Assembly (NCBI GenBank): GCA_900696575.1
Contig: CAADHD010000024.1
Location: forward strand, 1 to 64,000
Direction: 5' to 3'
From: an uncultured Bacteroidota bacterium
Lineage (GTDB): Bacteria; Bacteroidota; Bacteroidia; AKYH767-A; OLB10
Length of the DNA: 64,000 bases
Notes under the pieces: generated by a model
Seen by the model: only the letters and a program-made list of their open reading frames with translations
Databases searched by the model: none
What the model was told of the DNA's origin: nothing
Position numbers and translations under genes: made by a program
In this document: positions 671 to 18,772 of the stretch, piece after piece
How positions within the stretch are numbered: the first letter of the stretch is position 1
How the letters are laid out: each line of letters opens with the position of its first letter

Positions 671-3600
671 TTAAATTGTACGCTGAACGATTATTCGCTT
701 AGTCAGAATAACTTCAAGGTCATTGGAAATTATTAAGAAATAAACACCGCTGACCAGATTGTCAAGAATTAGCACGAAATGGTTTTCACCTTCAGCTACA
801 TCAATTTTTCTTTCCAAGACTATCCTGCCTGTAGCATCCTGTATTAATACTCCACTGGTGCTGATACCCGCTGAATTAAATACAATGTTCAAACGATCAT
901 TAGCAGGAATAGGATAAACAGAAAAGTCATTTGAAAAACTGTTTGCCGGAGGTTCATCAAGGGTACGGCATCCGAGATTTACATTGATATTAATAGTTCT
1001 CCAAGGTGAAGAACTGCAACTGTTATTTGCCCGAACAGACAATACAGCTAAACTTGAAGTGGCAGTTGTGAACTTTACTTTCACGGTTTTTCCGGTAGTC
1101 GATCCAACAAAGGTAGCGCCTCCAGTTATAGTCCATGAATAAGATGTAGCTCCAGTAACTGTGGAAATGGAATAAGTAACAGAAGTATTTGATTTACACA
1201 CTGATGTATTGCCACTTATATTTCCGGGCATGGAAGGTGCGGCACTTACTGAACGAATACTTGCTGCACTAGCTCCACAAGCATTATTTGCTTTTACAGT
1301 GATGTTTCCAGTTCCTGTAAACGATGAACTGAAATTGACCTTAATGCTGGTTCCGGTTGCTGAACCTGAAATTGAAGTTCCAGTTGGAGTTGTCCAGGTA
1401 TATGAACTGGCACCATTTACAGAAGAAATGCTGTAAGTCTGATTCGATTTGTTACAAAGATTTACAGTTGGTCCGCTAATAGCTCCAGGTGCTGAAGTCA
1501 ATGAGGAAATGGAAAGTGAAGCTAGAGGGCTGTTGCCACATGAGTTTGATGCAAAAACCGAAACACTACCCGAACTAAAACCGGATGGGAAAGTCACCTG
1601 TACACTGCTTACAGAGCTGTCAACCGTGATTGGGTTTCCTGAAAGAGTTCCGCTTACTATGGTGGCTCCGGAAGGTGCACTCCATGTATAAGAAGTAGCA
1701 TTGGGAAACTTCAATATAGAATATGTTTTGGTGCTTCCTGCGCAAACTGCTGCTGTTTCATTATTTCCAAAAAATACAGGTGCAATCACCAACTTTCCTA
1801 ATACAAGTTTAAATCTTTCATAACTGCTGCCGATACAATTGACAGCCTTAACTGATACGAATGCGGCAATGAACCCCGAAGCGAAATTTACTGTAATGGA
1901 ATTAGTTCCCTGACCTGAAACAATGACAGGAAATGTACCATCTAAGTTGTAAATTTTCCAGATATAAGAGGTTGCATTCGTAACAGGATTGATGGTATAT
2001 ACGGCCGTTTGGGAACCACAGATGGTATTAAGTCCAGAGATGTAGCCTGGAAAGCCAGGAGAGGCTGTAAACCTGATTAGGTTCTTAATGCTGACAATGC
2101 TGCTTCCGCAAGAATTATTTGCCTTAACGGTTATGTTTCCTCCGCTGAATGAATTATCTAATGCAACAGTAATGGAAGTAGTTGTTGATGACCCGGAAGC
2201 ACCGGAAGGCAATGTCCATGTGTAAGAAGTTGCTTCCGGAACAGCAGAGATACTGAAAACAACTCCGGTTTGATTGCGGCATGCTCCATTTGGACCGTCA
2301 ATTAATCCGGGAGCTGCAGGCGGTATTCCACTATTGCCTATTGAAGCCGAGGCGGTTTGGGTGCATCCATTAATATCGGTAACGGTAACTGTGTATGTTC
2401 CTGCGGTAACACTGGAAATGTTTGATGTCATTTGTCCGCTTGACCAGACATAATTGTAAGGCGCAAATCCATTGCTGGCAGTAGCCTCTGCTGAACCATT
2501 ACTATTAGCGCATGTCGAATTAACAGTAGTAATGTTGATATTGATTGGCAGCGGTTCTGTAAGTGTAACGGAAGCACCTGCCTGACATCCGTTGCCATCA
2601 GTAACTGTGTAGTTGTATGTTCCGGCAGTAAGGTAGTTGAATACTCCTGTTCCGCTGTAAGGGAATGTACCACCGCTGGCCATTACTTCAATGGTACCAA
2701 GACTTCCAAAACAAGGTATGTTACCGAAAGCATTAACAGTTAAAGGTGATGCAGGTTGCGAGATACTGCCGGTAGCTTGCGCTGTACACCCATTCTGATC
2801 GGTTACAGTGAATGAATAAGGGCCGGCACTCAATGTCTGAAAACCGGTTCCTGCATAAGGTGAAATCCCACCAGTTGCTGAGATTTCAATTGTTACCGTT
2901 CCCCCATAACATGCAATACTGCCGGTGCTGCCGGATGCAACAAGTAGATCTGGTTCTGAAATTACTATGGATGTTGACGAAGTACAACCATTAGCATCCG
3001 TTACAATAAATGAATACGAACCTGCGCCAACAGTTTGGATTCCGATTCCTGAATAAGGTTCAAACCCTCCTGTTGCTGCAACCACCACGTTTGTAGTCCC
3101 TCCATTACATAAGATACTACCTGCCGAAGAACTTGCCTGTAAACTGGAAATACTGCTGATATTACCGTTCACCTGATAAGAACATCCTCTTGCATCAGAT
3201 ACGATAAATGAATAGGGACCGGCTGGTACCATAAAAACTCCTTCTCCGGAATATGGAGGCACACCGCCAGTACCTGAAACAGAAACCTGAGCTAATCCGG
3301 AGGCACAATTAAACGATCCTTCAGAAACATTTGCACCTATTACATCATACACAGTAAGTGTTCCGTTCACATAGGTGACATTATAGTTTTCCGGGTTTTC
3401 AATCTGAATGAGGTCAGAAGGAACAATTTGGTAAGTCCCGGCAATCAGATTTCCACTACCGGCATTCTGGTTCAACGAATTCAGTATGGTGAAAGATGGG
3501 CCTGAATCAACCACATTCGAGTCGGCATCTTCATAAACATAACCGTGAATTGTTGCGGTGTAAATTGGCTGTTCACCCTGGCATCCTCCTATGGTATCAT

Positions 3601-6600
3601 CAGCAGTAACTGTTAACTGGGCCGGAGTTATTTCAAGCTCACCCATCTGATATGTAACATCATAATTCTCATTCATAAAGGCGGGCGGAACAATAAAATG
3701 AGTTCCAACGGTAGTCCCGGTAATCATACTGATGCTGTTAAATTCCAATGAATCATTAGCAGGCGCATTGATGTCATCTTCATCAACAATCACTACAGTC
3801 TGATCATTGCTTTCATCATCCACGGTTTCTCCATTAACCAAAGCGCGGCCATTCACCAGAGCGCGGGCATTCACTAACGCTCTTCCATTGACGAGCGCTC
3901 TTCCGTTTACTAATGCTCTTGCATTGACAAGTGCACGGCCGTTTACTAAAGCACGGGCATTAACCAAAACCGTTGTATCAGGATTGTCCTGATAATTGAA
4001 AACCGAAGCAACAGCCAAATCAACAAAATGAGCAGTTGCCGGCTCATAAACGCCATTCACCAATGCTCTTGCATTGACTAATGCTCTTGCATTGACAAGC
4101 GCCCTTGCACTGGCAATACAACTGAGATTTGCCAAATCAGAATTTACCAATGCACGTCCGTTTACAAGTACCCGTGCATCAACCAGAGCAATTTCGCTTG
4201 CTATATCTTCCAGGTATAGATCTTCAAGGTCATCCTGAAAGTCTGATAAGTGTGCCGGACTGATGTTTGAAGTGTTGTATTGGTAGTCATATTCAAAGCC
4301 ATCAATGCGGACTCCATAAGTTAAAGTCGTATCTCTCGGCTTGATTACCACAGGCATACGTTCAATAATTAGTACACCATCAACAAAAGAATAATTGAAA
4401 GATTCGGCTAACTGCTGGGCAAGAGGATTATTCAAGTCTGTAACATCAGGGCATGAAGGACGGATATAATAAAATCCGATATTACTGTTTTCATTGGCCG
4501 GTGTGGTGTAAAGAATATTGGTTAAACCAAGATCGCTTAAAGTAAATCCTGATGACGCTAATGGAATTCCGTTTACAGTTATTGAAGGAGTAAATGACGG
4601 ATTCATTTCACCATATTTTCTTGTTGCATTATTTGCGGTTACCACTACATTCATTACCGGTGAACTTAAAAGGTAAAGAGAATCTGAAACTCCGCCATCC
4701 AATCCGCTGGGAGTAATCGGGTAATTATAAACCGTAACCGGAGGATTACCCACAAAGGCAGGAATGGTAGCTGTCAATTGAGAAGATGAAATAACATTGG
4801 CAGGAATAGTATCATATTGAAACAGTACTACTGCATTACTTCCGAAATAAGATCCATAAATAGTGATATCCACAGGCTGCTGACCGGGCGTAAGTAACGG
4901 GTTGGTAAGCGTGAGTGAATCAACCAATGGACGCGGACGGGCAAACGACATCAACGCAGAATCCGCATGGATAAAACCATGGCCTGAGAGGTTATCATAT
5001 CCCGCAGTGTACATATCCATGGCTGTTGATGTGAGTGTGGTTCTGACAGCGGATGGTGTCATGATTTCGTTAAAAAACTTCCTTTTGCCTTCAATCAGTA
5101 AAGCGCCAACAGCAGCTGCATGCGGAGCAGCAGCAGAGGTTCCGAAGAAATTGGGAAATAAATCACCGTCTATATTTACTCCGCCCATATTGACTGTGGT
5201 GTTTACGCCATTAGGTGCACAGAAGTCAGGTTTAAACCGATCTACCCCGTCAATCAAAACACCGCCTCGTGATGAGAAGGATGCTACGGTAGGATTGTTA
5301 ACCCCGAAAGCCGGAGTGTTGGTATAAAGAACTGCACCGACCGAAATGGCACCTACAGCATTAGCCTGTCCCACACACGTGGTTGCTCCTGATTGATATT
5401 CGTTGATGGTAATATCTCCTCTGAAAACAATATACTTGAATCGTGAATTGCCGGTTCCTGATTTGCGGGTAATCATCAGGTTGGCATTGGTATTTCCACG
5501 AACAACAAATGAAAGTACTTCATTTGGATCTTCGCCAATGTTGTTTCTGTTGAATCCGAAAAGGAGGCTGCCTGCTGTGTTGAGCAGATAAATATCATAA
5601 TCATTCGCAGCGCCATCCAGCTGACCGAGTGAATAGACATCATCGTCCCATTGCAGAACAATAGTATAAACACCTGGCTTGAGGAAAACACTTTGGTAAA
5701 TATCTCCCCCACCGAAATCATGGGCCATCCCTGTGAATCCTGAAGGCGCAGGAACGGGATTGAAAGTTGACTCATACGAAGCAGTTCCATAATTACCCGC
5801 TGCCGAGAAATACGAAACGCCCTGAGATGCAACATAATCAACAGCATTGGCTATCACACCGTCTTTAAAGAATGGCTCGTTGATGTAGGTAACATCATCT
5901 ACAATAACATCACAACCTGCAGCAGCAAGCCCTTTGATTTGCTCAGCCATGTGTCCTGCAGTAATAAATCCTGTGGCAAATGCCTGTTTTGCTTTAGGCG
6001 CAACGTCATAAACAATCTGCATCATAGCACGGCCCTCGTCAGACAATGCACCGTAAGGGTAATCCTGAAGTACTTCAACCGGATTAGTGTTGTATGGATT
6101 TCCCGAACCGGGCAAATCGCCATTGTTAACATCAATCAATGCCTGATTTCCGAATTTGGTATTATAACTGTTCGAAATAGTTCCCACCTTCACTCCTTCT
6201 CCTTCCAAGCCAAAAATGTTGCGTGCTATATCCGATCGCATGGAAATATCTCCTTTACTGAACGTGATTCCCTGATTGGCGGTATTATTCAATGGTCTGC
6301 GGTTTACTTCGGCAAAGCGCATCAAGGCAGGAAAAAGATTATTCAACAAGGGAATATTATTTACGGGGTAATATCCAGTAATGACCAAGGTATCATCTCC
6401 GGTGGGAAAAATGCTGATCATTCCATACACTGGGGATTCGAGGAGTGCTTCAAGAGTTGTACGCTGACCTTCAACGGCAAAAACATCTATCAACACATAG
6501 CCATTGTCGTACTCGAAAGAATTACCCGGATTGTTAGTCGTATCGGTAACAATCGTGGAGTCATTGGTAACCTGTGTCAGCATGGTACCAATGGGTTCAT

Positions 6601-9600
6601 TGGTATTTCCGCTCGCTGGAGGAGCAAAGTCAGGAATGATACAGTCACCGGGTGCAAGCTGAGTTATGGTTACTAAAACCGGATTATTTGAATTCAAACA
6701 ATTGCCATCATCCACCTGAGCCTCATAAACACCGGCAACAAGATTTTCAAATACTCCTGATCCGTTTGTTTCATTGTAGCTGTTTCCTGTTAAATGATAC
6801 ACATAACCGTTTTGGCTGGGATTGCCGCCTGCTGGATTGGTAATGGTTACCGAACCGTTACCGGGCAATTCGCAGGATTCGGAATGTGTAACATCAAATG
6901 TAATGGCTGCATAGCAAGCACTGCAGTTTGTGTTGAACACAGCCTGAGGATCCACATTAGAAGCCCAGGTATTAATCATGTATGTTACATCATCTACCTG
7001 AATGCATGTTAAGAGAGGAACACCGATAACAAGAAACGAGGTGAGAGCAGTGTTGTTACCGTTTTGAATATTCAGCGAGGTTAGCGTAGTATTAAATGAA
7101 CCATCAAATTCCAAGAGGTTCACATCCAGGGACAGGTCTAAGTCTGTTATGGAATTATAAGAACAATTAAGATTTGTCAGTACTGCGTTGGCAGAAGTGT
7201 TTAGTGCGGTAAGCTGGTTGCTATGGCAATCTAATAAAGACAGAGCAGCATTTTGCGAAAGATTCAAACTTGAAAGCTGCGCATTGTTACAGTATAGTTC
7301 AACCAAATCCGGATTGTCAGTAACATCGAGTGCGGTAAACAGATTGGTACCGCAATCAAGATACTGAAGTAAAGTATTGGCAGATACATCAAGCGCTGTG
7401 AGTTGATTGTCATAGCACCATAGCCCGATTAAAGATGTATTGTTTGATAAATCAAGAGAAGTTAATTGATTCACATCACAACTTAAATATTCGAGTGCAG
7501 TGTTGGCAGATAGATCAAGCGATGTAAGCTGGTTTGCCGAGCAGACCAGTGCTGTTAATGCTGTATTCGCTGATAAATCAATCGAAGTGAGCTGATTGTT
7601 GCCGCAGTTTAATGTTGTCAGTGAAGTAAATGCTTCTATTCCTGTTAAATCGGAAATGGATAAAGAGAACACATTTATAAAGCCGGTAAAAGCAGTTGCT
7701 TCCGAACATTGAATTTCTCCGTCACTGTTTGTGTTGATGGATGCATTGGCGAGCAAGGCATTTTTAAAGTTTAAATCGGGGATGTTAACAGTACAAAACG
7801 GTTCGCCAATCTGAATAATACCCAAATCAGAACCTGTATAACTTAAAGAAATAGAATTTGTGGTAAAACCATCCACGGTTAAATCAATCCAGTTGGAGCC
7901 GTTGTACATTTTGGCAACGCAGTTAGAGAGATTAACTCCGGCATCCACATCAGAAGAAAGGAAGTTAAGCGTGGTAAAAAATCCGGAGGTGGTTGCTCCG
8001 GCTGAGGCAACAGTCCAGTTTCTGTTTATGCTTTTTGTTTCATCTATACCTGAAGATGAAATCTGGGAAGCATTACCATCATCGGTTCTTATATTGATTC
8101 CTCCCTGCGTTGCGATAAGAGCAGTAAACTGTACCGGCAGGTAATTATCATAGTTTCCGACAGGAAAGGTAATCCCCAGACTCATCGGGTAGTAAATTTC
8201 GAGTGTTCCGTCAATATAGTTGTCATTGCCTCCGTTAATCAGGATGGCCCCATCAGCCATTACCACTTTGCTGGCTGGACCTACGGTTCTGATTTTTCCG
8301 TAGTTAAAGGATAACTGGCTGCTGATGGTTTGAATACCGTTAATAAAAATTCCGGCTGCATCAAAGGTAAAAGGAATGAAAGTGGCAATACTGCCGTCTC
8401 CGAAAATGGTTTGCGGAACTCCTGCCCCCATAATAAAGCTGCTGTTATGAATACCGCCATTGTTGGTCAATGATTCTCCGTTATAAAAAATGCTGGATGA
8501 ACCCACTATGGTTGCATTACTATTTAAGGTCAAATTGCCGCTCATCCAGTCAATTGTACCATCCAGAATCAAATCATCGCCCGGTCCGTTGTTAACGGTA
8601 ATATCACCGGAGGAAAACACTTTGAGCGTTCCGCCATTTTCAAGCACTACTTCATCAATAGTAATACCGGTAAGCACGTTTACTTCATGGCCACTCCTTA
8701 TGGTGATGGTCGAATCCAAATAGGAAGGAGGGTTTGCAGCCTGAACCCAGTTACAACCGTCATAAGTTTCCCATGTTGTTTCACTATCCCAGTCGCCACT
8801 TAATGCAGTGCGGTATTGATTGGTTGGCACACAGGGAACCTGGGGTTCCCCAATAACAAATTCACCAAAGCTTTGCAGATCAAGAGTTGTAAGGCTGGTG
8901 GCAGTGGTATTAGCTACCGTTGGTGTACTCCAAAAGTTATTGTGAAGCTGAGCCAGAATTAAATTCGAAGTATTCACACCGGCATCCACATCGGCAGGAT
9001 CCCAATTGAAGGTTATATCGCATTCACTGAATGTTAATCCGTTATTTTTAATGAACCATGAACGGTTTATACTTTTATTCTCATCAACTCCGGAGTTGGC
9101 AATATCATTAAAATCACCGGCCAGAGTGCCTGCTTCCACCGGCCCCCCAATGGTAAAGCTGGGATCAAGGATGATTGGTGCAAAATAATCAGCATCACCC
9201 ACTGGATACGTTTTTGCTCCCGGCACACTAAAGTATTGCTCTAAACTTCCAATAACATAACTGGATGCAGAAAATGAATTAATGACTGCATCTTGAGCAA
9301 GAATTACAGTATTTGAGTTGGTAATAAGTTTTCCCTGTGAGAGATCAAGCGTCTGCGTAATGGTATGATCTTCATTGAGTAAAACGTTAAAAGGATTATT
9401 CACTGTCAAATGTTCAATACTTCCCATGCCCGAGATCTGTTGCTGGTAAGTATTATTTGTCATGGAAAAATCTCCTTTAATCAAACCATTATTGTTAACA
9501 TCGCCTGTAAAGGAAACCGGAAACTGAAAATTGACCTGAGCGTTAACGTCAACACTTAACGAACCGCTGAAGTAAGAAGGGCTGTCATTAAGTTCAAAAT

Positions 9601-11881
9601 TAGATCCTTCAAGAATAGTTGTAGTTCCGGAGTTATTGAATATAAAGCCGGCATCAAAAATCACATCACTGAAGTCAACCGTAAACGTGCCGGAATTATT
9701 CAGCACACATTCTGAAGATCCGTCTACTGTTTTAAAATGGATGCCTTCCACAAAAGTCATTATACCTTCGTGAGTAATCAGGTTTTCTGCGCCTTGAGCA
9801 TAGAAATCGCTTTCATTGCTCCATTCCCAAACAGCGCCTGAATAAATATGTAAATGCAATCCATCCTGAATAAATTTATCTCCACCACCCGAAATTCCTC
9901 CGGTACTTCCTGCAAACATGTTGAGAGTTCCGGGTCCTGCCAGCCGGCTTAAATTGGCCATGGTAATTTGACTTCCTGTATTAAAATCTACTTGACCATT
10001 AACTACTAGTTCTCCTCCTGAAATATACAATGAGCCATTACACGTTAAGTCAACTCCCAATCCATCCTCAACAAGAAAAACAGCGTTATTTATGTTAAGG
10101 TCTGCGCCTTGTTCTATAACTAACTGGTCAGCATCAGTTCCTAAAATTACTTCCACATTATCTCCGGTTCTAATGGTAATCAGTGAACTGTTTAAACTGT
10201 TTGGCGGATCAATGGCCGGAACCCAGGCATTGCCATCAAAAATTTCCCATGTAGAACTATTATTCCAGTAGCCGGATGCAGCAGAACGATATTCAAACGG
10301 ACCGGTAAGGTTGGGTTCGCCAACGCTATATTCCATATTATTCTGAACGAAGCTGAAGTTAGTGCCGGTTATGGAGAGTGCAGTAGGGTTGGCCACCGTA
10401 CCCAGAGGCTGCCAAATATCAAAAGCAGCCTGATATTCTCCCACTTTCATGTTAGCCACATTGGTTCCGAAATCAAGATAGCCGCTTGTCCAGTTTAAAG
10501 TAATATCATACGATGAAAAGTTTGCCGTACTAAAGTTAGCTTTCCAATAACGGTTAACGGATTTCAAATAATTTAAAGGTGAAGTAAGAATGGCATAATG
10601 GTCGCCACTTTCCGAAATCATAGTAACCGAAAGAGGGCCGGAAACGCCATTAATGTCAAGAGTTGCCGGTGCGTAATAAAATTTACCAATAGGAAAAAGA
10701 AGTGAATTGAAACCGATGGAACAATCTCTTTGCAAGGCTCCGTTTACATAGCTGTTATCATTACCACCGACTATGGTAGTGCCGGCATTTAAAATTAATG
10801 TATTGGGGCCTGTATTGATAATTCCATTATTAAGATGCAGAAAATAAAAAACCTGCTGATTAGCTGTTAATTCAATACCGGAGGAACTGTTTATTCTCAG
10901 CGTTTGCATCAACCCGTCTCCCGCAAGCATTTGCAGACTGCTGCCTGCAAAAGCAACCTCACTAGTGGATACGTATCCGTTATTGGTAAACTGACTACCG
11001 GTAAAGTTTAATGTGTTTCCGGTTAATTCGGCACCAGACGAAACGGAATAGGTTCCGTTTTGAATGGCTCCGAAATTCTGAATATTTAATGTTCCTGCTA
11101 ACAGACTGATCTGCCCTGAATTATTCACGGCTATCACACCGGGAATATTAGTAGTGGAAGCATCGGTTTTCAGTAAAATGCCTGAGCTCATATTGTTAAA
11201 GGAGGGAGCTGTCGGAGATCCGTTTAATCCAAAACTTGCATTGGTGCTAATGGTAAATGATCCGTAGTTATTAAACTGAACGCTGTTGGAAAACAATAGT
11301 CCAAAGGTGCCGGAACTCCAGTTCAGCGTTCCATAATTATTTATGGTCCTTGTATCGCCAATAATGCGGCTGCCTCCACCGCTACTCAGGATAATATTGG
11401 ATCCCGGCTGAAAATTAGTCGTTCCGCTACCTCGCATATTTCCATTGGTCCATGTAAATGTTCCACCGCTGGCTATATCAATTTGCCCGTCACCTTCAAT
11501 AAAGCTTCCTGAAAAGGTCATTGAACCTTCAACCAGCAAATCCACTCCGGGACCATTGGCAACCTGTAGAGTGCCGTTGCTGATTACAAGAGATCCACCG
11601 CTATTCACAATAACCTGGTCGGCAAGAACAATGGTATTCACTGTAACCGAATGCGGGTTTTGGATGGTAATGACTCCGTCAGTTGCATTAGGCACCACTG
11701 TAGCGGGTATCCAGATGGAACCATTAAAGGTTTGCCAGATAGAGGTTGTTGTCCAGTTGCCGGACGCTATGGTGCGGTAGTCGCCAACGCTTTGCGCAAA
11801 AAGCGTTTTTATACTTGCAAACAGAATCAGTAATGTCAATAATAGTTTGGCAGCCAATGGCTGCAAACAAGATGTTCTCAT
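671..11881 (-). CDS. Giant multidomain T9SS-secreted adhesin/protease-like protein: signal peptide, 3x N-terminal modules, LRRs, subtilase/S53-like domain, IPT, MBG, LVN[G/A]RA repeats, SprB repeats, PKD-like repeats, T9SS type A sorting domain
   Basis: Single uninterrupted ORF. The more plausible start is the internal MRTSCLQPLAAKLLLTLLILFASIKTLFAQ (ATG at 11879-11881), not the extended ORF start at 11944. Motifs seen: LTSLDLSANTALEYLSC (LRR), DEGRAMMQIVYDVAPKA and FFGTSAAAPHAAAVGALL (peptidase), and C-terminal DFSVYPIPANDRLNIVFNSAG...GVYFLIISNDLEVILTKRIIVQ (T9SS). Confidence 0.9.
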   Translation of the reverse strand: MRTSCLQPLAAKLLLTLLILFASIKTLFAQSVGDYRTIASGNWTTTSIWQTFNGSIWIPATVVPNATDGVITIQNPHSVTVNTIVLADQVIVNSGGSLVISNGTLQVANGPGVDLLVEGSMTFSGSFIEGDGQIDIASGGTFTWTNGNMRGSGTTNFQPGSNIILSSGGGSRIIGDTRTINNYGTLNWSSGTFGLLFSNSVQFNNYGSFTISTNASFGLNGSPTAPSFNNMSSGILLKTDASTTNIPGVIAVNNSGQISLLAGTLNIQNFGAIQNGTYSVSSGAELTGNTLNFTGSQFTNNGYVSTSEVAFAGSSLQMLAGDGLMQTLRINSSSGIELTANQQVFYFLHLNNGIINTGPNTLILNAGTTIVGGNDNSYVNGALQRDCSIGFNSLLFPIGKFYYAPATLDINGVSGPLSVTMISESGDHYAILTSPLNYLKSVNRYWKANFSTANFSSYDITLNWTSGYLDFGTNVANMKVGEYQAAFDIWQPLGTVANPTALSITGTNFSFVQNNMEYSVGEPNLTGPFEYRSAASGYWNNSSTWEIFDGNAWVPAIDPPNSLNSSLITIRTGDNVEVILGTDADQLVIEQGADLNINNAVFLVEDGLGVDLTCNGSLYISGGELVVNGQVDFNTGSQITMANLSRLAGPGTLNMFAGSTGGISGGGDKFIQDGLHLHIYSGAVWEWSNESDFYAQGAENLITHEGIMTFVEGIHFKTVDGSSECVLNNSGTFTVDFSDVIFDAGFIFNNSGTTTILEGSNFELNDSPSYFSGSLSVDVNAQVNFQFPVSFTGDVNNNGLIKGDFSMTNNTYQQQISGMGSIEHLTVNNPFNVLLNEDHTITQTLDLSQGKLITNSNTVILAQDAVINSFSASSYVIGSLEQYFSVPGAKTYPVGDADYFAPIILDPSFTIGGPVEAGTLAGDFNDIANSGVDENKSINRSWFIKNNGLTFSECDITFNWDPADVDAGVNTSNLILAQLHNNFWSTPTVANTTATSLTTLDLQSFGEFVIGEPQVPCVPTNQYRTALSGDWDSETTWETYDGCNWVQAANPPSYLDSTITIRSGHEVNVLTGITIDEVVLENGGTLKVFSSGDITVNNGPGDDLILDGTIDWMSGNLTLNSNATIVGSSSIFYNGESLTNNGGIHNSSFIMGAGVPQTIFGDGSIATFIPFTFDAAGIFINGIQTISSQLSFNYGKIRTVGPASKVVMADGAILINGGNDNYIDGTLEIYYPMSLGITFPVGNYDNYLPVQFTALIATQGGINIRTDDGNASQISSSGIDETKSINRNWTVASAGATTSGFFTTLNFLSSDVDAGVNLSNCVAKMYNGSNWIDLTVDGFTTNSISLSYTGSDLGIIQIGEPFCTVNIPDLNFKNALLANASINTNSDGEIQCSEATAFTGFINVFSLSISDLTGIEAFTSLTTLNCGNNQLTSIDLSANTALTALVCSANQLTSLDLSANTALEYLSCDVNQLTSLDLSNNTSLIGLWCYDNQLTALDVSANTLLQYLDCGTNLFTALDVTDNPDLVELYCNNAQLSSLNLSQNAALSLLDCHSNQLTALNTSANAVLTNLNCSYNSITDLDLSLDVNLLEFDGSFNTTLTSLNIQNGNNTALTSFLVIGVPLLTCIQVDDVTYMINTWASNVDPQAVFNTNCSACYAAITFDVTHSESCELPGNGSVTITNPAGGNPSQNGYVYHLTGNSYNETNGSGVFENLVAGVYEAQVDDGNCLNSNNPVLVTITQLAPGDCIIPDFAPPASGNTNEPIGTMLTQVTNDSTIVTDTTNNPGNSFEYDNGYVLIDVFAVEGQRTTLEALLESPVYGMISIFPTGDDTLVITGYYPVNNIPLLNNLFPALMRFAEVNRRPLNNTANQGITFSKGDISMRSDIARNIFGLEGEGVKVGTISNSYNTKFGNQALIDVNNGDLPGSGNPYNTNPVEVLQDYPYGALSDEGRAMMQIVYDVAPKAKQAFATGFITAGHMAEQIKGLAAAGCDVIVDDVTYINEPFFKDGVIANAVDYVASQGVSYFSAAGNYGTASYESTFNPVPAPSGFTGMAHDFGGGDIYQSVFLKPGVYTIVLQWDDDVYSLGQLDGAANDYDIYLLNTAGSLLFGFNRNNIGEDPNEVLSFVVRGNTNANLMITRKSGTGNSRFKYIVFRGDITINEYQSGATTCVGQANAVGAISVGAVLYTNTPAFGVNNPTVASFSSRGGVLIDGVDRFKPDFCAPNGVNTTVNMGGVNIDGDLFPNFFGTSAAAPHAAAVGALLIEGKRKFFNEIMTPSAVRTTLTSTAMDMYTAGYDNLSGHGFIHADSALMSFARPRPLVDSLTLTNPLLTPGQQPVDITIYGSYFGSNAVVLFQYDTIPANVISSSQLTATIPAFVGNPPVTVYNYPITPSGLDGGVSDSLYLLSSPVMNVVVTANNATRKYGEMNPSFTPSITVNGIPLASSGFTLSDLGLTNILYTTPANENSNIGFYYIRPSCPDVTDLNNPLAQQLAESFNYSFVDGVLIIERMPVVIKPRDTTLTYGVRIDGFEYDYQYNTSNISPAHLSDFQDDLEDLYLEDIASEIALVDARVLVNGRALVNSDLANLSCIASARALVNARALVNARALVNGVYEPATAHFVDLAVASVFNYQDNPDTTVLVNARALVNGRALVNARALVNGRALVNGRALVNARALVNGRALVNGETVDDESNDQTVVIVDEDDINAPANDSLEFNSISMITGTTVGTHFIVPPAFMNENYDVTYQMGELEITPAQLTVTADDTIGGCQGEQPIYTATIHGYVYEDADSNVVDSGPSFTILNSLNQNAGSGNLIAGTYQIVPSDLIQIENPENYNVTYVNGTLTVYDVIGANVSEGSFNCASGLAQVSVSGTGGVPPYSGEGVFMVPAGPYSFIVSDARGCSYQVNGNISSISSLQASSSAGSILCNGGTTNVVVAATGGFEPYSGIGIQTVGAGSYSFIVTDANGCTSSTSIVISEPDLLVASGSTGSIACYGGTVTIEISATGGISPYAGTGFQTLSAGPYSFTVTDQNGCTAQATGSISQPASPLTVNAFGNIPCFGSLGTIEVMASGGTFPYSGTGVFNYLTAGTYNYTVTDGNGCQAGASVTLTEPLPININITTVNSTCANSNGSAEATASNGFAPYNYVWSSGQMTSNISSVTAGTYTVTVTDINGCTQTASASIGNSGIPPAAPGLIDGPNGACRNQTGVVFSISAVPEATSYTWTLPSGASGSSTTTSITVALDNSFSGGNITVKANNSCGSSIVSIKNLIRFTASPGFPGYISGLNTICGSQTAVYTINPVTNATSYIWKIYNLDGTFPVIVSGQGTNSITVNFASGFIAAFVSVKAVNCIGSSYERFKLVLGKLVIAPVFFGNNETAAVCAGSTKTYSILKFPNATSYTWSAPSGATIVSGTLSGNPITVDSSVSSVQVTFPSGFSSGSVSVFASNSCGNSPLASLSISSLTSAPGAISGPTVNLCNKSNQTYSISSVNGASSYTWTTPTGTSISGSATGTSIKVNFSSSFTGTGNITVKANNACGASAASIRSVSAAPSMPGNISGNTSVCKSNTSVTYSISTVTGATSYSWTITGGATFVGSTTGKTVKVKFTTATSSLAVLSVRANNSCSSSPWRTININVNLGCRTLDEPPANSFSNDFSVYPIPANDRLNIVFNSAGISTSGVLIQDATGRIVLERKIDVAEGENHFVLILDNLVSGVYFLIISNDLEVILTKRIIVQRTI
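3825..4195 (-). repeat. LVN[G/A]RA hexapeptide (18-nt) repeat array inside the giant protein, in three blocks
   Basis: Translation: LVDARVLVNGRALVNS...ARALVNARALVNARALVNG...VLVNARALVNGRALVNARALVNGRALVNGRALVNARALVNGRALVNG. There are 14 LV[N/D] units in total, 8 of them contiguous. Confidence 0.95.
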
Positions 11882-12104
11882 TTGTTTTTGTTTTTGGGGT
11901 TTATGAACTCGTGCAAATAACGACTTTAAAACAACACCAGTCAATGGGTGAAAATACCCCTAAGAGGGCTTGTTTTTTTGAAAAAAATAATGCTGGTGGT
12001 GAAATTAAATTGCTGATTACTGGTTTACAGGGAAGTGCATCTTCTTTAAACCGGCTATCATGAGCGATAATTCAGCAAATACTGTTAATGAGGAGCAGCC
12101 TCTA

Positions 12105-12578
12105 TCAACTTTTGTTAACCAAAATATAAATTACCAAAGCAAGGATAATCAGAATTAAACCGGCAATCACCGGGTTTTTTGAGTCTTTCTTTTGCGGTTG
12201 CAATTTTTGATTGAAAATCCTTGATATGCTGTTTTCAATTTTATTAAATGCCTGTTGATTCTTAACCACATAATCAAAAGCACCGGCTTTAATGAGGTTG
12301 GCAGAAACTTCGGGCTTCTCCTGAGCGGAAAGACATATAACATGAGCAGTAAACTTCTTCTTTAACTGCATCAGTATCTGCATACCGTTTAATGCACCGG
12401 GATTAAGAGTATCAAGCTGGTAATCGAGTATGATCACATCGGGAATAAAACCGTTTTGCTCAATAGCTTTCATGCCATCATTGAAAATGGAAAATTGGGC
12501 ATCGCTGAACTTTTGAGATAAATGATCTTTAGTCATTTCGGCCATGGGCACATTATCATCAATAATCATGATTTTCAT
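12105..12578 (-). CDS. Response regulator receiver domain with C-terminal transmembrane helix
   Basis: MKIMIIDDNVPMAEM...PDVIILDYQLDTLNPGALNGMQIL...VICLSAQEKPEV (CheY-like), then a linker and VIAGLILIILALVIYILVNKS as the C-terminus. Confidence 0.85.
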   Translation of the reverse strand: MKIMIIDDNVPMAEMTKDHLSQKFSDAQFSIFNDGMKAIEQNGFIPDVIILDYQLDTLNPGALNGMQILMQLKKKFTAHVICLSAQEKPEVSANLIKAGAFDYVVKNQQAFNKIENSISRIFNQKLQPQKKDSKNPVIAGLILIILALVIYILVNKS

Positions 12579-12666
12579 AGGGCTGATTTCATTTGCAGGT
12601 TAACGCGGTAAATGTAAAACGAATGGTGTAATGAAGTAGCTGAAGTTTCCTACTGCCTTCCGGCCA

Positions 12667-14658
12667 TCAGGTACTGACCGTCATCGGCTTCTCTACCCAA
12701 TCACCATGCTCCCGAATCAGATCAATCAATGCTTCCACGGCTTCTTCTTCAGGTATATTTCTTTTCACTACTTCTTTTCCTTTATAAAGTGTAATGCGTC
12801 CGGGTCCGGTGCCTACATAGCCATAATCGGCATCAGCCATCTCGCCCGGTCCGTTAACTATGCATCCCATAATTCCGATTTTCACTCCTTTTAAATGATC
12901 CGTTCTGGAACGGATACGTGCGGTGGTTTCCTGCAAATCAAAAAGCGTTCGCCCGCACGATGGACAACTGATGTACTCGGTCTTTGAAATGCGTGTACGT
13001 GTTGCTTGCAGAATACCAAAGGAAATTCGGTTGATAACGGCCGGTGAAATTTTATCGGCCTGAATAAATATACCATCACCCAATCCGTCAATCAGCAATG
13101 CGCCTGCATCGGTGGCTGCATAAAGTTTTAATGCCTCCTCATTAATTTTTTCATACTTTCTATGAATGATAACCGGGCAATTGATTTCATTTAGTCTCAT
13201 TTCCAGAAAAAACCTCCTCTGCTCGGCCATGCCATGAGGATTATCTGTTGATAGTATTAGAACCGCTGTTGGATTTTCAGTGATTGAGGAAACAAAGATT
13301 TCATTTATTAAATCATTCATACTGCATTGAACAAAATTCAACTCAGGATGATGATCTTTTTCTATCCAATCTTTTATGGTCATTAACGGATACGTTTGCT
13401 GACGGTCTTTGACGGAACACCAAACTGAATAAGGATGAATAATACCAAGCGTTCCGGGTATATCAAAATCAACTTGTTTATCTCCTGCATAAATAAAATC
13501 GCAGGCCTGATCGCTGAGGTTCCATTTATCAAGAGGAACGGAATAATTGTATCCGCAGGCAAAAAGCGAAGACGGTGTAATTTTTTCTGAATGGCTAAGG
13601 TCCATGATTATCCTCGGTACATTTTTGCCCCCGGTGTTGATTACTCCGGCAGAAACTCTTCTGTCATATTCAAAGGCATTGTAGTACTTCTCAGGCGAAT
13701 ACATTTCGGGAATTTCCTGCTGTATGGCTTCACGGTTATCATAACGGCTGACAAGCATTCGGGCAACAGGTAATTCATACTCAGGCTCCTCTGTCAAAGA
13801 AACACGGATGGTATCACCCAATCCATCTTCCAGCAATGTGCCGATGCCGACAGCAGATTTAATTCTTCCGTCTTCGCCATCTCCGGCTTCAGTAACTCCC
13901 AGATGTAAAGGATAACAGACAGGAATTTCAGATTTGTTTTCAGGATTATCAACCGGCCCGAATTCTTCCAGCATTTGTTTTACAAGCAGCCTGTAAGCAT
14001 GAATCATCACCTGCGGATTGCTTGCTTTCATTGACAGCACAATGTTGTGATAATTTTCATCACGGCAAATCCTCAGAAATTCCATGGCGCTTTCAACCAT
14101 ACCGAGAGGAGTATCACCATAACGGCTCATGATGCGGTCGCTGAGTGAACCATGATTGCAACCGATGCGCATAGCAGTGCCGTATTCTTTGCAGATTTTA
14201 ATTAAAGGCAGAAACCGTTCGCGGATTCGCTCCAGTTCCTCACTATATCCTGCATCGGTGTATTCTATGTTTTCAAATTTTTTTTTGTCGGCATAATTAC
14301 CGGGGTTCACTCTCACTTTCTCAACAATGCGTGCAGAAAGTTCAGCAGCATTGGGGGTAAAATGAATATCGGCAACCAGCGGGGTATTATAGCCGCGCTT
14401 TTTCAATTCATACTTGATGTTTTCAAGATTTCGCGCTTCGTTAATGCTGGGTGCAGTAATACGGACAAGCTCACAGCCGGCTTCAATCATCCTGATGCTC
14501 TGCTCTACCGTAGCCGGGGTATTCATAGTATCAGTGGTGGTCATGCTTTGGATGCGAATGGGATACTTACCCCCCATCATCAGACTACCTATGCTAACCT
14601 CACGCGTGGGCAGCTTTTGATAACGGAATAAGTCAGCGCAATAAATTCCTTTCAGCAT
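12667..14658 (-). CDS. ispG: (E)-4-hydroxy-3-methylbut-2-enyl-diphosphate synthase, long three-domain form
   Basis: 663 aa; PIRIQSMTTTDTMNTPATVEQ, VADIHFTPNAAELSA, VRVNPGNYADK, and C-terminal ISCPSCGRTLFDLQ...KIGIMGCIVNGPGEMADADYGYVG. Confidence 0.95.
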   Translation of the reverse strand: MLKGIYCADLFRYQKLPTREVSIGSLMMGGKYPIRIQSMTTTDTMNTPATVEQSIRMIEAGCELVRITAPSINEARNLENIKYELKKRGYNTPLVADIHFTPNAAELSARIVEKVRVNPGNYADKKKFENIEYTDAGYSEELERIRERFLPLIKICKEYGTAMRIGCNHGSLSDRIMSRYGDTPLGMVESAMEFLRICRDENYHNIVLSMKASNPQVMIHAYRLLVKQMLEEFGPVDNPENKSEIPVCYPLHLGVTEAGDGEDGRIKSAVGIGTLLEDGLGDTIRVSLTEEPEYELPVARMLVSRYDNREAIQQEIPEMYSPEKYYNAFEYDRRVSAGVINTGGKNVPRIIMDLSHSEKITPSSLFACGYNYSVPLDKWNLSDQACDFIYAGDKQVDFDIPGTLGIIHPYSVWCSVKDRQQTYPLMTIKDWIEKDHHPELNFVQCSMNDLINEIFVSSITENPTAVLILSTDNPHGMAEQRRFFLEMRLNEINCPVIIHRKYEKINEEALKLYAATDAGALLIDGLGDGIFIQADKISPAVINRISFGILQATRTRISKTEYISCPSCGRTLFDLQETTARIRSRTDHLKGVKIGIMGCIVNGPGEMADADYGYVGTGPGRITLYKGKEVVKRNIPEEEAVEALIDLIREHGDWVEKPMTVST

Positions 14659-14666
14659 ACTTTGTA

Positions 14667-16529
14667 CTACTGTTCAATCAACAAACGGAAAACCGAGCTG
14701 TTTACTCTCAGAACATAAATCCCGGAGGCAAGCATCGGTAAATTTAACTGAATGCTTTTCTCATTCTCAGAATCCGCCCCTGCTAAGAATACATTTCTGC
14801 CATAAACATCTTCTATTGCCAGGTTCAGAATCCGGGTTTGGATATTTCGGGCTTCAATAGTAACCTGCTCTTTAGCCGGATTAGGATAAATATGAAATTC
14901 TGCACTGTTTAAAGCCTCCTCCATTCCGGAGCATGGTTCCACTAAAATTGATTGTACAGCCGTTGACTTACATCCCTGCGCATTAATATAGGTGTAAGTA
15001 ATGCAATGCGTACCCACCCCTGCTGTTGGCGGATTGAATGAATTTCCGGTAATGCCATGTCCGGTAAACACTCCTCCGGCAGGTACGCCATTCAGGTTAA
15101 TTGGCGGATAGTTAACACAGGAGTTGGATGGTAATCCGGTAAATCCTGTTGTTGTGGGAATACCGAAGCGAACGTACACATCTGATGATTGAGACTGACA
15201 GGTTGGTGAAGCCATTACTTTTAATGAATAATTGCCGGGCTGAGTAACTATCAATGTATCGCCATTGGCACCATTTATCAGGTTTCCGTTGAGGTACCAT
15301 TCATAACTTAACAATACTGCGCTTTTTACCGAACGAAGAACATAGGGAGCCACACCACAAAAGGTAATTGTATCGGTTAAGCTGAAAGAAGCAACCGGAT
15401 TGCAATCGGTTGATTCAATTTTTAAAATCTGTCCATTTCCATCAATAGAAGTATAAAGTTCACCATAAACATCAATACCAAAACAGGCATAAGTGCCGAT
15501 AGAAAACGCACCATGCGGAACAGTAGCAAGGGTATTTACATTGGTACTGAATATTACCCCTGAACAATAATCACCGAAAAAGTAACGCCCGAACATGTCG
15601 GCATGTCTGGCGCCTCTGTAAACATAACCTCCGGTTACACTGCATCCGCCAAGAGGACCTGTATGAGGATATTCATAAACGGGAGGTACATAAGCGGACT
15701 GAGGCTGGCAACCGGTAGTATTGTAAACCAGCGTTCCCTCATAACAGCGCCAGCCGTAATTTTCGCCTCCCAATGAATTAACCGGCTGTAAGTTTACTTC
15801 TTCACTGGCCCCCTGACCTACATCGCCAATCCAGTAATCACCGGTCATGCGGTCAAAAGTGCAACGCCACGGATTTCTTAAACCCCAAGCCCAGATTTCG
15901 GGAAGGTATGCAGGATTATTGTTGAAAGGATTGCATTCGGGTATAGCATAAGGAAATGCTCCGTCCACATCAATACGTAAAATTTTGCCAAGCCGGCTAA
16001 GTTTATTTTGAGCAAAATTCTGCGGATCGCCACCTGCTCCGCCATCGCCTGTGGAAATGTACAGATAACCATCAGGTCCGAAATTCATACTGCCACCGTT
16101 GTGATTGGTGTATGGTTGATTATATGTCATCAGTATCTGCGCACTGGTTGCCATTGCGCTGTCAGGGTTTGTTGCACTGGTTTGATAACGAGCCACCACA
16201 CTGTTGCCGGCAAGGTTGATGTAATTCAAATAGAAGTATCTGTTGCTTTTATAATTGGGATGAAAGGCAAGTCCAAGTAATCCTTGCTCATTTCCCGAAG
16301 ATTCAACAATAGAACTGATATTCAGAAAGGGCTGAGCATTTAAGACACCGGAGAGGTTTGAGATTTTAATGATGCCCGATTTTTCTACCAGAAACAACCG
16401 TTCATCACCTGCATTCTGAATATCCACCACACGGTTCATTCCTGAAATAAAAAGCGATGTAGTTAATGTTTGGGCATTCACAGCAGTGAATACAATGGAG
16501 ATTAAAATAAAACAAGAAAATTTTTTCAT
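14667..16529 (-). CDS. PQQ-dependent sugar dehydrogenase (glucose/sorbosone dehydrogenase-like) with T9SS sorting domain
   Basis: VEKSGIIKI, GLLGLAFHPNYKSNRYFYLNY, NHNGGSMNFGPDGYLYISTGDGG, WAWGLRNPWRCTFD; C-terminal EFHIYPNPAKEQVTIEA...GIYVLRVNSS. Confidence 0.85.
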   Translation of the reverse strand: MKKFSCFILISIVFTAVNAQTLTTSLFISGMNRVVDIQNAGDERLFLVEKSGIIKISNLSGVLNAQPFLNISSIVESSGNEQGLLGLAFHPNYKSNRYFYLNYINLAGNSVVARYQTSATNPDSAMATSAQILMTYNQPYTNHNGGSMNFGPDGYLYISTGDGGAGGDPQNFAQNKLSRLGKILRIDVDGAFPYAIPECNPFNNNPAYLPEIWAWGLRNPWRCTFDRMTGDYWIGDVGQGASEEVNLQPVNSLGGENYGWRCYEGTLVYNTTGCQPQSAYVPPVYEYPHTGPLGGCSVTGGYVYRGARHADMFGRYFFGDYCSGVIFSTNVNTLATVPHGAFSIGTYACFGIDVYGELYTSIDGNGQILKIESTDCNPVASFSLTDTITFCGVAPYVLRSVKSAVLLSYEWYLNGNLINGANGDTLIVTQPGNYSLKVMASPTCQSQSSDVYVRFGIPTTTGFTGLPSNSCVNYPPINLNGVPAGGVFTGHGITGNSFNPPTAGVGTHCITYTYINAQGCKSTAVQSILVEPCSGMEEALNSAEFHIYPNPAKEQVTIEARNIQTRILNLAIEDVYGRNVFLAGADSENEKSIQLNLPMLASGIYVLRVNSSVFRLLIEQ

Positions 16530-16548
16530 GCTTGATTTGGTTGAACGC

Positions 16549-16556
16549 CAAAAGTA
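16549..16556 (-). promoter_or_regulatory. Candidate Bacteroidota -7 element TACTTTTG
   Basis: Reverse complement of caaaagta matches TAnnTTTG, 20 nt upstream of the 16529 start codon. Confidence 0.4.
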
Positions 16557-16604
16557 ACCAATACAAAAAGTAATCAGATTTAATTTTATTCACTTTTGCA
16601 AAAC

Positions 16605-17177
16605 ATGATTTTGACTGAATCTTTTTACGTAAATGAAAATGTGGTTGAAACAGCAAAAATGTTGCTGGGCAAAATGCTTTTCACAAAAATAAATGGAACG
16701 ATAACGGCAGGAATCATCTCCGAAACGGAAGCATATAACGGAGCTAAAGACCGTGCCAGCCATGCATATAATTACAGACGAACAGCACGAACGGAGGTAA
16801 TGTTTTCTGAAGGAGGAGTGGCCTATGTATATCTGTGCTATGGCATTCATTCGCTGTTTAATGTGGTAACCGGTGCAAAAGGAAATCCGCAGGCTGTTTT
16901 AATAAGAGGCATTTCGCCAGCCATCAACATAAAGAAGATTGAAAAACGTCTTGGAAGAAAAGTTAACGAAGCGCTTCATGGGCCGGGACTGGTGAGTAAA
17001 GCTCTGGGCATTCATTACCTGCACAGCGGCACTTCTCTTCTATCGCCTGAAAAAATTTGGATTGAAGATCATGGTATTTCCTTCAGCCGCAAACAAATTA
17101 AAATTACACCCCGAATCGGTGTTGATTATGCCGGTAAAGATGCTTTGCTGCCCTACCGCTTTGTCGCTGAAATTTAG
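16605..17177 (+). CDS. DNA-3-methyladenine glycosylase (AAG/MPG family)
   Basis: LLGKMLFTKINGTITAGIISETEAYNGAKDRASHAYNYRRTARTEVMFSEGGVAYVYLCYGIHSLFNVVTG. ATG at 16605 preferred over the TTG at 16596. Confidence 0.9.
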   Translation: MILTESFYVNENVVETAKMLLGKMLFTKINGTITAGIISETEAYNGAKDRASHAYNYRRTARTEVMFSEGGVAYVYLCYGIHSLFNVVTGAKGNPQAVLIRGISPAINIKKIEKRLGRKVNEALHGPGLVSKALGIHYLHSGTSLLSPEKIWIEDHGISFSRKQIKITPRIGVDYAGKDALLPYRFVAEI

Positions 17178-17200
17178 TTTTCTTTGGTTCGGAAATTAAG

Positions 17201-17998
17201 ATGCTCGAACTTTTTAAAATCGGTTTTCTCGAAGTACGTTGGCTGGATGTGATTGATGTACTTATTACCGCCTTTCTTCTTTACAAAGTATATGACCTGC
17301 TGAAAGGAACCGTTGCCATCAACATTTTTCTCGGAATCATTGCCATTTATATCCTATGGTGGCTGTGTTCGCGGGTGCTTGATATGAAATTACTCGGAGG
17401 AATTTTAGGGCAGTTTATCGGAGTGGGGGTGCTTGCACTCATTATTGTTTTTCAACAGGAAGTAAGACGATTTCTCATACTGCTCGGCTCGAAAAACATT
17501 TTTAAAAACAGCCGTATTGCCAGAAGATTTTTTATCAAAGGATTTCAGTTTGACAGCGAATCAAAAACCGATCTTAAGCCCATCCTGAAAGCGTGCACCA
17601 GCATGTCGAAAACAAAAACAGGCGCCATCATGGTTATAGAACGCAAAACCGACCTGAACTTTTATGCCGAAACCGGAGATGTGCTTAATGCCGATTTATC
17701 TAAGCGTGCTATTGAAAGCATCTTCTTTAAAAACAGCCCGCTTCACGATGGAGCCATTATCATCTCCGGAAATAAAATAAAAGCCGCACGCTGTGTTCTG
17801 CCGGTTACCGATAACACCGAATTACCTGCTCAATATGGAATGCGCCATCGTGCAGCGTTGGGTATAACTGAGCAAAGCGATGCCGTGGCCATTATCGTAT
17901 CAGAAGAAACAGGCGCTATTTCTGTTGCCGTTGACGGTAAAATCCAGACCAATATAGAACCCGAAGACCTGGAACAGCACCTCCATGAAATTTTGTGA
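17201..17998 (+). CDS. cdaA: Diadenylate cyclase, CdaA type
   Basis: N-terminal TM helices, then NSPLHDGAIIISGNKIKAARCVLPVT and YGMRHRAALGITEQSDAVAIIVSEETGAISVA (DGA and RHR motifs). Confidence 0.93.
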   Translation: MLELFKIGFLEVRWLDVIDVLITAFLLYKVYDLLKGTVAINIFLGIIAIYILWWLCSRVLDMKLLGGILGQFIGVGVLALIIVFQQEVRRFLILLGSKNIFKNSRIARRFFIKGFQFDSESKTDLKPILKACTSMSKTKTGAIMVIERKTDLNFYAETGDVLNADLSKRAIESIFFKNSPLHDGAIIISGNKIKAARCVLPVTDNTELPAQYGMRHRAALGITEQSDAVAIIVSEETGAISVAVDGKIQTNIEPEDLEQHLHEIL

Positions 17999-18043
17999 TT
18001 CTGTTAACAGAAACTTATTCTGCAATTTCGTGTTTTGCATGTA

Positions 18044-18688
18044 ATGAAATCTGTTTTTGTATTTAGCATGCTGCTGGTTGCTGCAGGTTGCAATGCAAGC
18101 CATCAGCAACCTTATGAAACACTTAAAACCATGTCTGAAAAAATTGAATCAAATTTAAAAACCGATACAGCCACCTTCGGTAACGGATGTTTCTGGTGTA
18201 CCGAAGCCATTTTTCAGGATTTGAAAGGCGTTTTGAAAGTTACTTCTGGCTATTCGGGCGGAAAGGTTAAAAATCCGACTTATAAAGAAGTCTGTTCCGG
18301 TTTGACAGGCCATGCCGAATGCCTGCAGATTATTTATAACCCGTCAGTAATTTCGTTTGAAGAACTATTGGAAGTTTTCTGGAAAACGCATGACCCCACT
18401 ACACTGAACCGGCAGGGAAATGATGTAGGCACACAGTACCGCTCCGTTATTTTTTTTCATGATGAAAAGCAGAAGCAACTCTCCGAACAATTCAAAAAAG
18501 AACTTGATGATTCCAACATTTTCGATAAGCCCATCGTTACGGAAATAACCGCTTTTGACATATTTTATCCTGCCGAAAATTATCATCAGGAGTATTACAA
18601 CCTGAACGGACAGGAACCCTATTGCCAGTATGTGATTCGTCCGAAGGTTGATAAATTCAGAAAGGTGTTTAAGGAAAAACTGAAGTAG
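18044..18688 (+). CDS. msrA: Peptide-methionine (S)-S-oxide reductase MsrA, putative lipoprotein
   Basis: FGNGCFWCTEAIFQDLKGVLKVTSGYSGG, YKEVCSGLTGHAEC, DVGTQYRSVIF. ATG at 18044 gives MKSVFVFSMLLVAAGCNAS, a lipobox-like N-terminus. Confidence 0.92.
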   Translation: MKSVFVFSMLLVAAGCNASHQQPYETLKTMSEKIESNLKTDTATFGNGCFWCTEAIFQDLKGVLKVTSGYSGGKVKNPTYKEVCSGLTGHAECLQIIYNPSVISFEELLEVFWKTHDPTTLNRQGNDVGTQYRSVIFFHDEKQKQLSEQFKKELDDSNIFDKPIVTEITAFDIFYPAENYHQEYYNLNGQEPYCQYVIRPKVDKFRKVFKEKLK

Positions 18689-18772
18689 CCTGCCATCATA
18701 AGTATGCGATGCAAACGCACCCCATGGGGAGATCTGCATTTCTATTGCTCAATTTTCTATTATTCAACTTCC

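Follow-up and report, generated by a model that had tools for sequence, protein, structure and literature searches.

The window, a stretch of 64,000 nucleotides from an uncultured Bacteroidota genome, carries a gene for a giant secreted protein in which one short peptide, [G/A]RALVN, is repeated many times. The locus raises the question of what keeps the peptide constant while its codons vary, and what, if anything, reads it.

The word array and the protein carrying it

The initial annotation counted 14 LV[N/D] units in three blocks inside an MBG-type region. Translation of 671-11944 (-) agrees on both points: the units lie at 3833-4186 (-), and MBG_2 sequence (3593-4351) flanks the insert (Table 1). 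The protein possesses S8-like, MBG_2, LRR, SprB, PKD_6 and Por_Secre_tail regions, and its C-terminal sorting domain (PF18962 and TIGR04183) identifies it as T9SS cargo. Two MBG_2 (PF18676) stretches are present, the split copy aligning through its conserved halves. The array is part of a conserved insert in an MBG_2 domain, and the unit count is only part of the picture: in the homolog alignment the same insert, here termed the module, separates two MBG_2 halves and retains its linkers. Because the entire module of about 125 aa is conserved with its linkers in dozens of genomes, a chance origin of the array is excluded. Searches of Pfam, NCBIfam, PADLOC and PDB yielded no entry that identifies the array. 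Pfam S8 has no match in the window protein itself, and catalytic competence of the S8-subtilase-like region, judged from its sequence, appears doubtful.

Table 1. Features of the giant gene and its word array (window positions)
Feature	Position	Strand	Basis
Giant T9SS-secreted protein, 3757 aa, array carrier	671..11944	(-)	ORF translation, domain searches; homologs match Peptidase_S8
S8-subtilase-like region, upstream of MBG domains, limits approximate	4955..6229	(-)	sequence reading; Peptidase_S8 matches in homologs
MBG_2 (YGX-type) domain, interrupted by the word-array insert	3593..4351	(-)	alignment and MBG_2 matches in the protein
Word-array insert (module), ~125 aa	about 3809..4195	(-)	kept in 23/42 genomes of the order
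Block 1: LVDARVLVNGRALVN	4142..4186	(-)	translation
Conserved linker 1 (SDLANLSCIAS)	4109..4141	(-)	kept across homologs, alignment
Block 2: ARALVNARALVNARALVN, three ARALVN units	4055..4108	(-)	translation
Conserved linker 2 (GVYEPATAHFVDLAVASVFNYQDNPDTTV)	3968..4054	(-)	kept across homologs, alignment
Block 3: LVNARALVNGRALVNARALVNGRALVNGRALVNARALVNGRALVN, eight LVN units, [AG]RALVN	3833..3967	(-)	translation
Por_Secre_tail, C-terminal T9SS sorting domain	689..919	(-)	Pfam E 1.2e-8 (PF18962), TIGR04183 E 4.7e-7

The giant gene is adjoined by the N-terminal fragment of a SprB-repeat protein, cut at the contig start (3-503, -). Directly upstream, at 12105-14658 (-), lie a response-regulator-like ORF (157 aa, starting MKIMIIDDNVPMAEM) and a 663-aa ORF, a possible second signalling link. 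A T9SS-secreted glucose/sorbosone dehydrogenase (GSDH and Por_Secre_tail) is located at 14667-16529 (-).

The repeat had been read as a left-handed beta-helix carrying a ladder of Arg residues. When AlphaFold2 was run on a 15-row alignment, pLDDT across the array was about 24-34; for the insert modelled alone it was 26-46, and neither run yields a confident fold; a PDB profile search found no solved structure matching the array, and no Pfam family matches at it. The beta-helix was rejected on these grounds. The array has the six-residue period of left-handed beta-helix hexapeptides, but lacks their invariant core: in homologs the residues proposed as core are exchanged throughout (RVVTS or RAIAS in place of RALVN). 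Nor is the unit a fixed Arg-containing hexapeptide, since words of seven and eight residues occur and GIPLVN lacks a basic residue. Conservation of the linkers suggests that the insert is probably under structural constraints too.

Codon divergence and selection on the peptide

The 11 canonical [AG]RALVN units of the window all differ as 18-nt DNA, with a mean identity of 70%, and the initial annotation was right that the array is not recent slippage. Codon identity from unit to unit is 0.33, close to the 0.31 that the codon usage of the gene itself predicts; DNA identity was thus lost through ordinary silent drift that randomised synonymous positions. Active avoidance of identical codons, the other half of the original proposal, is rejected, since codon identity inside a locus equals or exceeds the expected value.

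Units of close orthologs show pN of 0.000-0.023 and pS about equal to that of the flanks. In 9 of the 12 closest pairs the units have no amino-acid difference at all, at a synonymous divergence near that of the remaining module. For L018/L036, units have pN 0 and pS 0.71 (rest of module 0.112 and 0.70), and for L093/L094 pN 0 and pS 0.73 (rest 0.160 and 0.74). Near-zero pN with pS equal to the flanks means that peptide identity is selected and codons are merely randomised, which bears out the constraint suspected at the outset.

In closest pairs, orthologous units resemble each other in codons more than other units do (0.85 vs 0.59, 0.94 vs 0.54 and 0.71 vs 0.39), hence no homogenisation took place over those times. 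Pure DNA homogenisation is rejected by this position-specific codon ancestry together with pN near 0. Near-identical DNA units occur at two loci, L025 and L037 (codon identity 0.89 and 0.87); RVLVN units of L029 have CGT..CTT codons in common, a sign of local copying, and neighbouring units are in general slightly more alike in codons than distant ones. Such rare DNA-level copying (L025, L037, L029) may be the source of new words, which selection then keeps.

Distribution of the module and its words

Among 61 relatives searched, 23 genomes possess the module. By profile search it is present in 23 of 42 genomes of the order, 18 of 395 in a class sample and 4 of 396 in a phylum sample; all four carriers of the last belong to the class of the window genome, and other families of this class also possess the module. 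A collection scan with a single protein as query adds named carriers among MAGs labelled Chitinophagales, Bacteroidales, Lentimicrobiaceae and others. The data are mostly MAGs with broken contigs.

Module proteins are T9SS proteins of 1,600-5,100 aa with about 7-14 copies of one word per protein, and the word differs between lineages. About 20 words of six to eight residues were found overall: RALVN, RAIVN, RPLVN, KSIVN, RVVTN, KVVTN, RVVTS, RVITN, RILSN, RAVVS, RAIAS, RVIAS, RALAN, RGIAN, KRSVN, KIVTN, [RK]GLVN, RGIVS, RRVVN, KSIVISN, RGTALVN and GIPLVN. GSRGIAN, KSIVISN and RGTALVN represent 7-mer/8-mer forms, and R or K is present in nearly every word except GIPLVN (G389) and parts of L092. 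Unit cores are 0.95 identical within loci vs 0.55 between them, the former value being somewhat inflated by the pattern-based choice of units. At fixed sites, non-canonical units (e.g. GSPIVN) retain xxx[LIV]VN although all canonical units have changed, and survive between altered canonical units in L022, L023 and L025.

A protein with the same word elsewhere in the genome was rejected, because short-word searches of G000, G031, G036 and G038 returned module genes only, and no description of the word or of a TPR-cyclase/T9SS pair was found in the literature. Family f13 (G339, G359, G412), with a handful of RGTALVN copies, altered linkers and a cyclase still adjacent, is a diverged form of the module. 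L198 (G089:C35) and L199 (G216:C50) contain a second repeated motif outside the module, TGLACW / LACWQT / FNTNTC, in 7-8 copies.

Words follow the genome

The word follows the genome rather than the gene lineage. In a tree of flank sequences, sister genes of different genera often differ in word, and divergent paralogs of one genome share it. At 40-50% flank identity the word is shared by 11/16 same-genome, 16/24 same-genus and 55/633 other-genus pairs; at 60-75% identity, by none of nine other-genus pairs. At least one divergent pair has a common word in 9 of the 11 genomes with divergent paralogs, and permutation of words over loci gives p=5e-5 for word sharing within genomes. Codons of same-word paralogs are mostly near chance (e.g. 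L016-L036, 0.44 vs 0.43 expected); the units of L015-L037 are alike at the codon level.

A TPR-transmembrane cyclase beside the module gene

Neighbourhood comparison reveals a gene of about 650 aa adjoining the module gene. In its product an N-terminal signal segment is followed by TPRs, one TM stretch (about 397-420) and the class III nucleotidyl cyclase domain Guanylate_cyc (PF00211, E about 1e-52 to 1e-56). The TPR region matches TPR_12 (E about 1e-29 to 1e-47), its PDB sequence matches include OGT, KLC, LGN and Rap3T, and residues 166-429 match NCBIfam FimS (NF053520, E 1e-31).

Module-linked cyclases form a single clade (SH-aLRT 100) with 33 members, 32 in the tree plus a truncated G040 copy. 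In 25 of them a same-strand cyclase directly adjoins the module gene in operon-like arrangement (24 downstream, one upstream); three adjoin a giant gene that is truncated where its contig ends, two lie a few genes away and three are unresolved or unlinked. Two or three genes separate cyclase and module gene in G030:C215 (L163) and G018:C82 (L157), which suggests operon rearrangement, and the clade cyclase C333 of G011 does not adjoin a module gene. None of ten related cyclases outside the clade, from the same or related genomes, has a module or giant-repeat neighbour, so that a generic TPR-cyclase linkage is rejected; in ten more distant module genomes the best cyclase adjoins the module gene every time. 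Among 42 genomes, 19 possess module and cyclase, four only the module, one only the cyclase and 18 neither (Fisher p=3e-7). The cyclase-only genome, G013, has a truncated giant gene beside the cyclase; a clade cyclase was missing in G003, and also in G015, G022 and G034 (fragmented or incomplete MAGs).

The window gene has no cyclase next door. The cyclase of its genome (G000) is located at C34:24605-26521, adjoining a paralog module gene with the same RALVN word plus RVLVN variants. A defence system appears unlikely, as PADLOC gives generic TPR/cyclase matches only; its PycC model matches just the shared cyclase domain (E 3e-13), and the TPR-TM architecture differs from Pycsar. G034:C17 contains several tandem TPR-cyclase-like genes of the other clade at about 12112-19299, some matches being joined across in-frame stops.

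Cyclase number and co-variation of word and TPR

A single clade cyclase accompanies the several module genes of each one-word genome (G000, G006, G018, G028, G036, G037, G038, G040), and two-word genomes have two: G031 (C7/RVVTS, C58/RVITN), G002 (C41/RALVN, C44/RALAN) and G282. Cyclase number thus matches word number in 3 two-word vs 8 one-word genomes (p=0.018). G007 is a partial exception with two words, one full clade cyclase and a fragment. A partial second, clade-like cyclase of 281 aa lies upstream of the module gene L150 of this genome (G007:C94, 10797-11639).

Word similarity correlates with TPR identity (rho 0.44) but not with that of the cyclase domain (0.12) or linker/TM (0.11). 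Controlling for cyclase, linker and module flank leaves a partial correlation between word and TPR of 0.40 (p=0.0012) in a Mantel-type test that removes phylogenetic dependence only in part. For TPR residues 76-225, with near-duplicates removed, partial r is 0.53 (p=0.0002) and stays at 0.53 when T4 words are dropped, vs only 0.12 for residues 226-345. The signal peaks at TPR2-4, whose windows are significant after max-statistic correction. It is enriched at TPR positions 2, 5, 9, 12, 13, 33 and 34, which we take to be concave, relative to other columns (p=0.003-0.007).

The strongest site, a column picked post hoc, is TPR3 position 9, the residue after Gly8. It is A/S/G in 18/20 receptors of V4 words and T/V/N in 9/9 others, with Asn for all T4 words and Thr for RAIAS, RVIAS and the RALAN of G002; within G002, Ala pairs with RALVN and Thr with RALAN. 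The site offers about 4.5 concordant and no discordant independent pairs, a number too small to be significant. TPR position 6 is Asn in 29/29 receptors for TPR3, 29/29 for TPR4 and 27/29 for TPR5. Neither the genome-specific word across paralogs nor its co-variation with the TPR groove of a neighbouring cyclase was within reach of the initial annotation.

Interpretation

The array is probably a multivalent, lineage-coded peptide ligand decoded by the TPR cyclase. A T9SS-secreted giant protein would present about 7-14 copies of one word ([G/A]RALVN in the window) from its MBG insert. The cognate receptor would be a protein of its own, with signal peptide, periplasmic TPR superhelix, one TM segment and cytoplasmic class III cyclase; in most genomes its gene immediately follows a module gene. 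From the co-variation we infer that the word would be bound in the concave TPR groove. Class III cyclases act as dimers, and an array of about ten identical words is consequently a plausible clustering device: several words per chain would gather cyclase monomers and, by such presumed dimer-based activation, change cyclic-nucleotide output. All module proteins of a genome would have the same word because they address a common receptor, and a shift in receptor specificity would shift all words. T9SS cargo passes through the periplasm, the predicted location of the TPR domain; words may be read there on cargo awaiting export (cargo sensing), may come from neighbouring cells or may be sensed as peptides after their release. 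A meeting of surface-bound words with a periplasmic TPR domain would be explained only if sensing precedes export. The system may serve to monitor, in the periplasm, the T9SS cargo of the cell itself, or to sense kin or population.

A variant of this reading assumes another form of ligand: the array would be a multi-copy precursor, cleaved at the basic residue that the words conserve, and free hexapeptides would enter the periplasm, bind the TPR cyclase and act as a quorum signal. The usual basic residue favours processing, and in logic the system resembles multi-copy pheromone precursors, since identical copies are repeated with randomised codons, are specific to the lineage and would have a TPR receptor dedicated to them. 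Yet simple spacers would not be expected to show the conservation seen in linkers and non-canonical units, and the conserved linkers favour a tethered array; GIPLVN (G389) and parts of L092 argue that a basic residue may not be essential, and no processing enzyme was identified. We consider release unlikely. That the giant protein is merely an adhesin or protease in an operon including a regulatory cyclase, word and TPR co-varying through co-inheritance, would fit the frequency of operonic regulator-effector pairs and the few dozen genomes sampled. It is distinctly unlikely, because only TPR2-4 co-vary with the word while the protein's cyclase domain, linker and C-terminal TPRs do not, and because unlinked paralogs have a common word and receptor number equals word number.

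Concerted evolution at the DNA level, with units homogenised inside and among paralogs by gene conversion or unequal recombination and then drifting silently, would make the genome word a by-product and the cyclase incidental. The near-identical units of L025 and L037, the CGT..CTT codons of L029, the likeness of neighbouring units and that of L015-L037 speak for such copying. Codons are, however, near random within most loci and about at chance between several same-word paralogs (such as L016-L036), and the closest pairs retain position-specific codons since their split; homogenisation is therefore rare. As it also leaves the absence of amino-acid change over diverged synonymous sites and the TPR co-variation unexplained, it is very unlikely to account for the words. 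Highly improbable is structural self-assembly, in which words would stack in register (beta-solenoid or amyloid-like) within the protein and between paralogs as a self-recognition surface code. Word identity within proteins and across paralogs fits it, as does the xxx[LIV]xN hydrophobic pattern retained at non-canonical sites; against it stand the AlphaFold2 models without confident fold, the want of a solved homolog and the xxx[LIV]VN units persisting among changed canonical ones in L022, L023 and L025. It predicts neither operonic linkage to nor co-variation with a TPR cyclase.

Known systems and biological meaning

With a ligand decoded by a TPR cyclase as the preferred reading, the closest parallel is the RRNPPA family of Firmicutes (Rap, NprR, PlcR, PrgX, AimR), whose receptors have a concave peptide pocket in the TPR (PMC9765709). 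Both systems combine a short secreted peptide with a TPR receptor, ligand and receptor genes are often adjacent and pairs are lineage-specific; the TPR_12 match of the partner and Rap3T among its PDB matches agree with this. RRNPPA receptors, however, are cytoplasmic with an HTH or phosphatase-type effector, whereas the Bacteroidota partner has a signal segment, TM and cyclase output, and their pheromone comes from a small secreted propeptide gene instead of a tandem array in a giant T9SS protein. The word-cyclase pair would thus work like RRNPPA, but the place of its receptor, the output domain and the kind of ligand gene put it outside the family.

FimS, a Bacteroidota TPR-TM sensor kinase, has the same architecture of TPR, coil and TM; the output of the partner is instead a class III cyclase. 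We know of no word-array partner for FimS. Multi-copy peptide pheromone precursors, such as yeast alpha-factor, likewise contain several identical copies per precursor, with paralogs carrying the same peptide and species specificity, but the word array interrupts a folded MBG domain within a giant surface protein and its linkers are conserved. A conserved Asn in successive TPRs also occurs in the peptide-binding TPRs of OGT, where it forms an Asn ladder (PMC10164912), kinesin light chain and LGN; the partner differs in being bacterial, predicted periplasmic and fused to a cyclase, and the matches reflect general TPR similarity.

Taken together, the locus would more probably than not, though with less assurance than the ligand role of the array, belong to an undescribed recognition system of Bacteroidota, in which a lineage word on all paralogous giant T9SS proteins is read by a co-evolving periplasmic TPR-adenylate/guanylate cyclase and a self signal (secretion status or kin) enters a cyclic-nucleotide pathway. 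Peptide quorum sensing is known mainly in Gram-positives. To our knowledge, no T9SS cargo has a dedicated periplasmic receptor, and we are aware of few ligands for the abundant Bacteroidota TPR-transmembrane sensors. If the reading is true, Bacteroidota would possess a peptide code that comprises about 20 words and dozens of ligand-receptor pairs found in nature, with specificity residues that can be tested. It would constitute a natural data set on the joint specificity switching of ligand arrays and receptors, and may provide a possible ligand class for these sensors.
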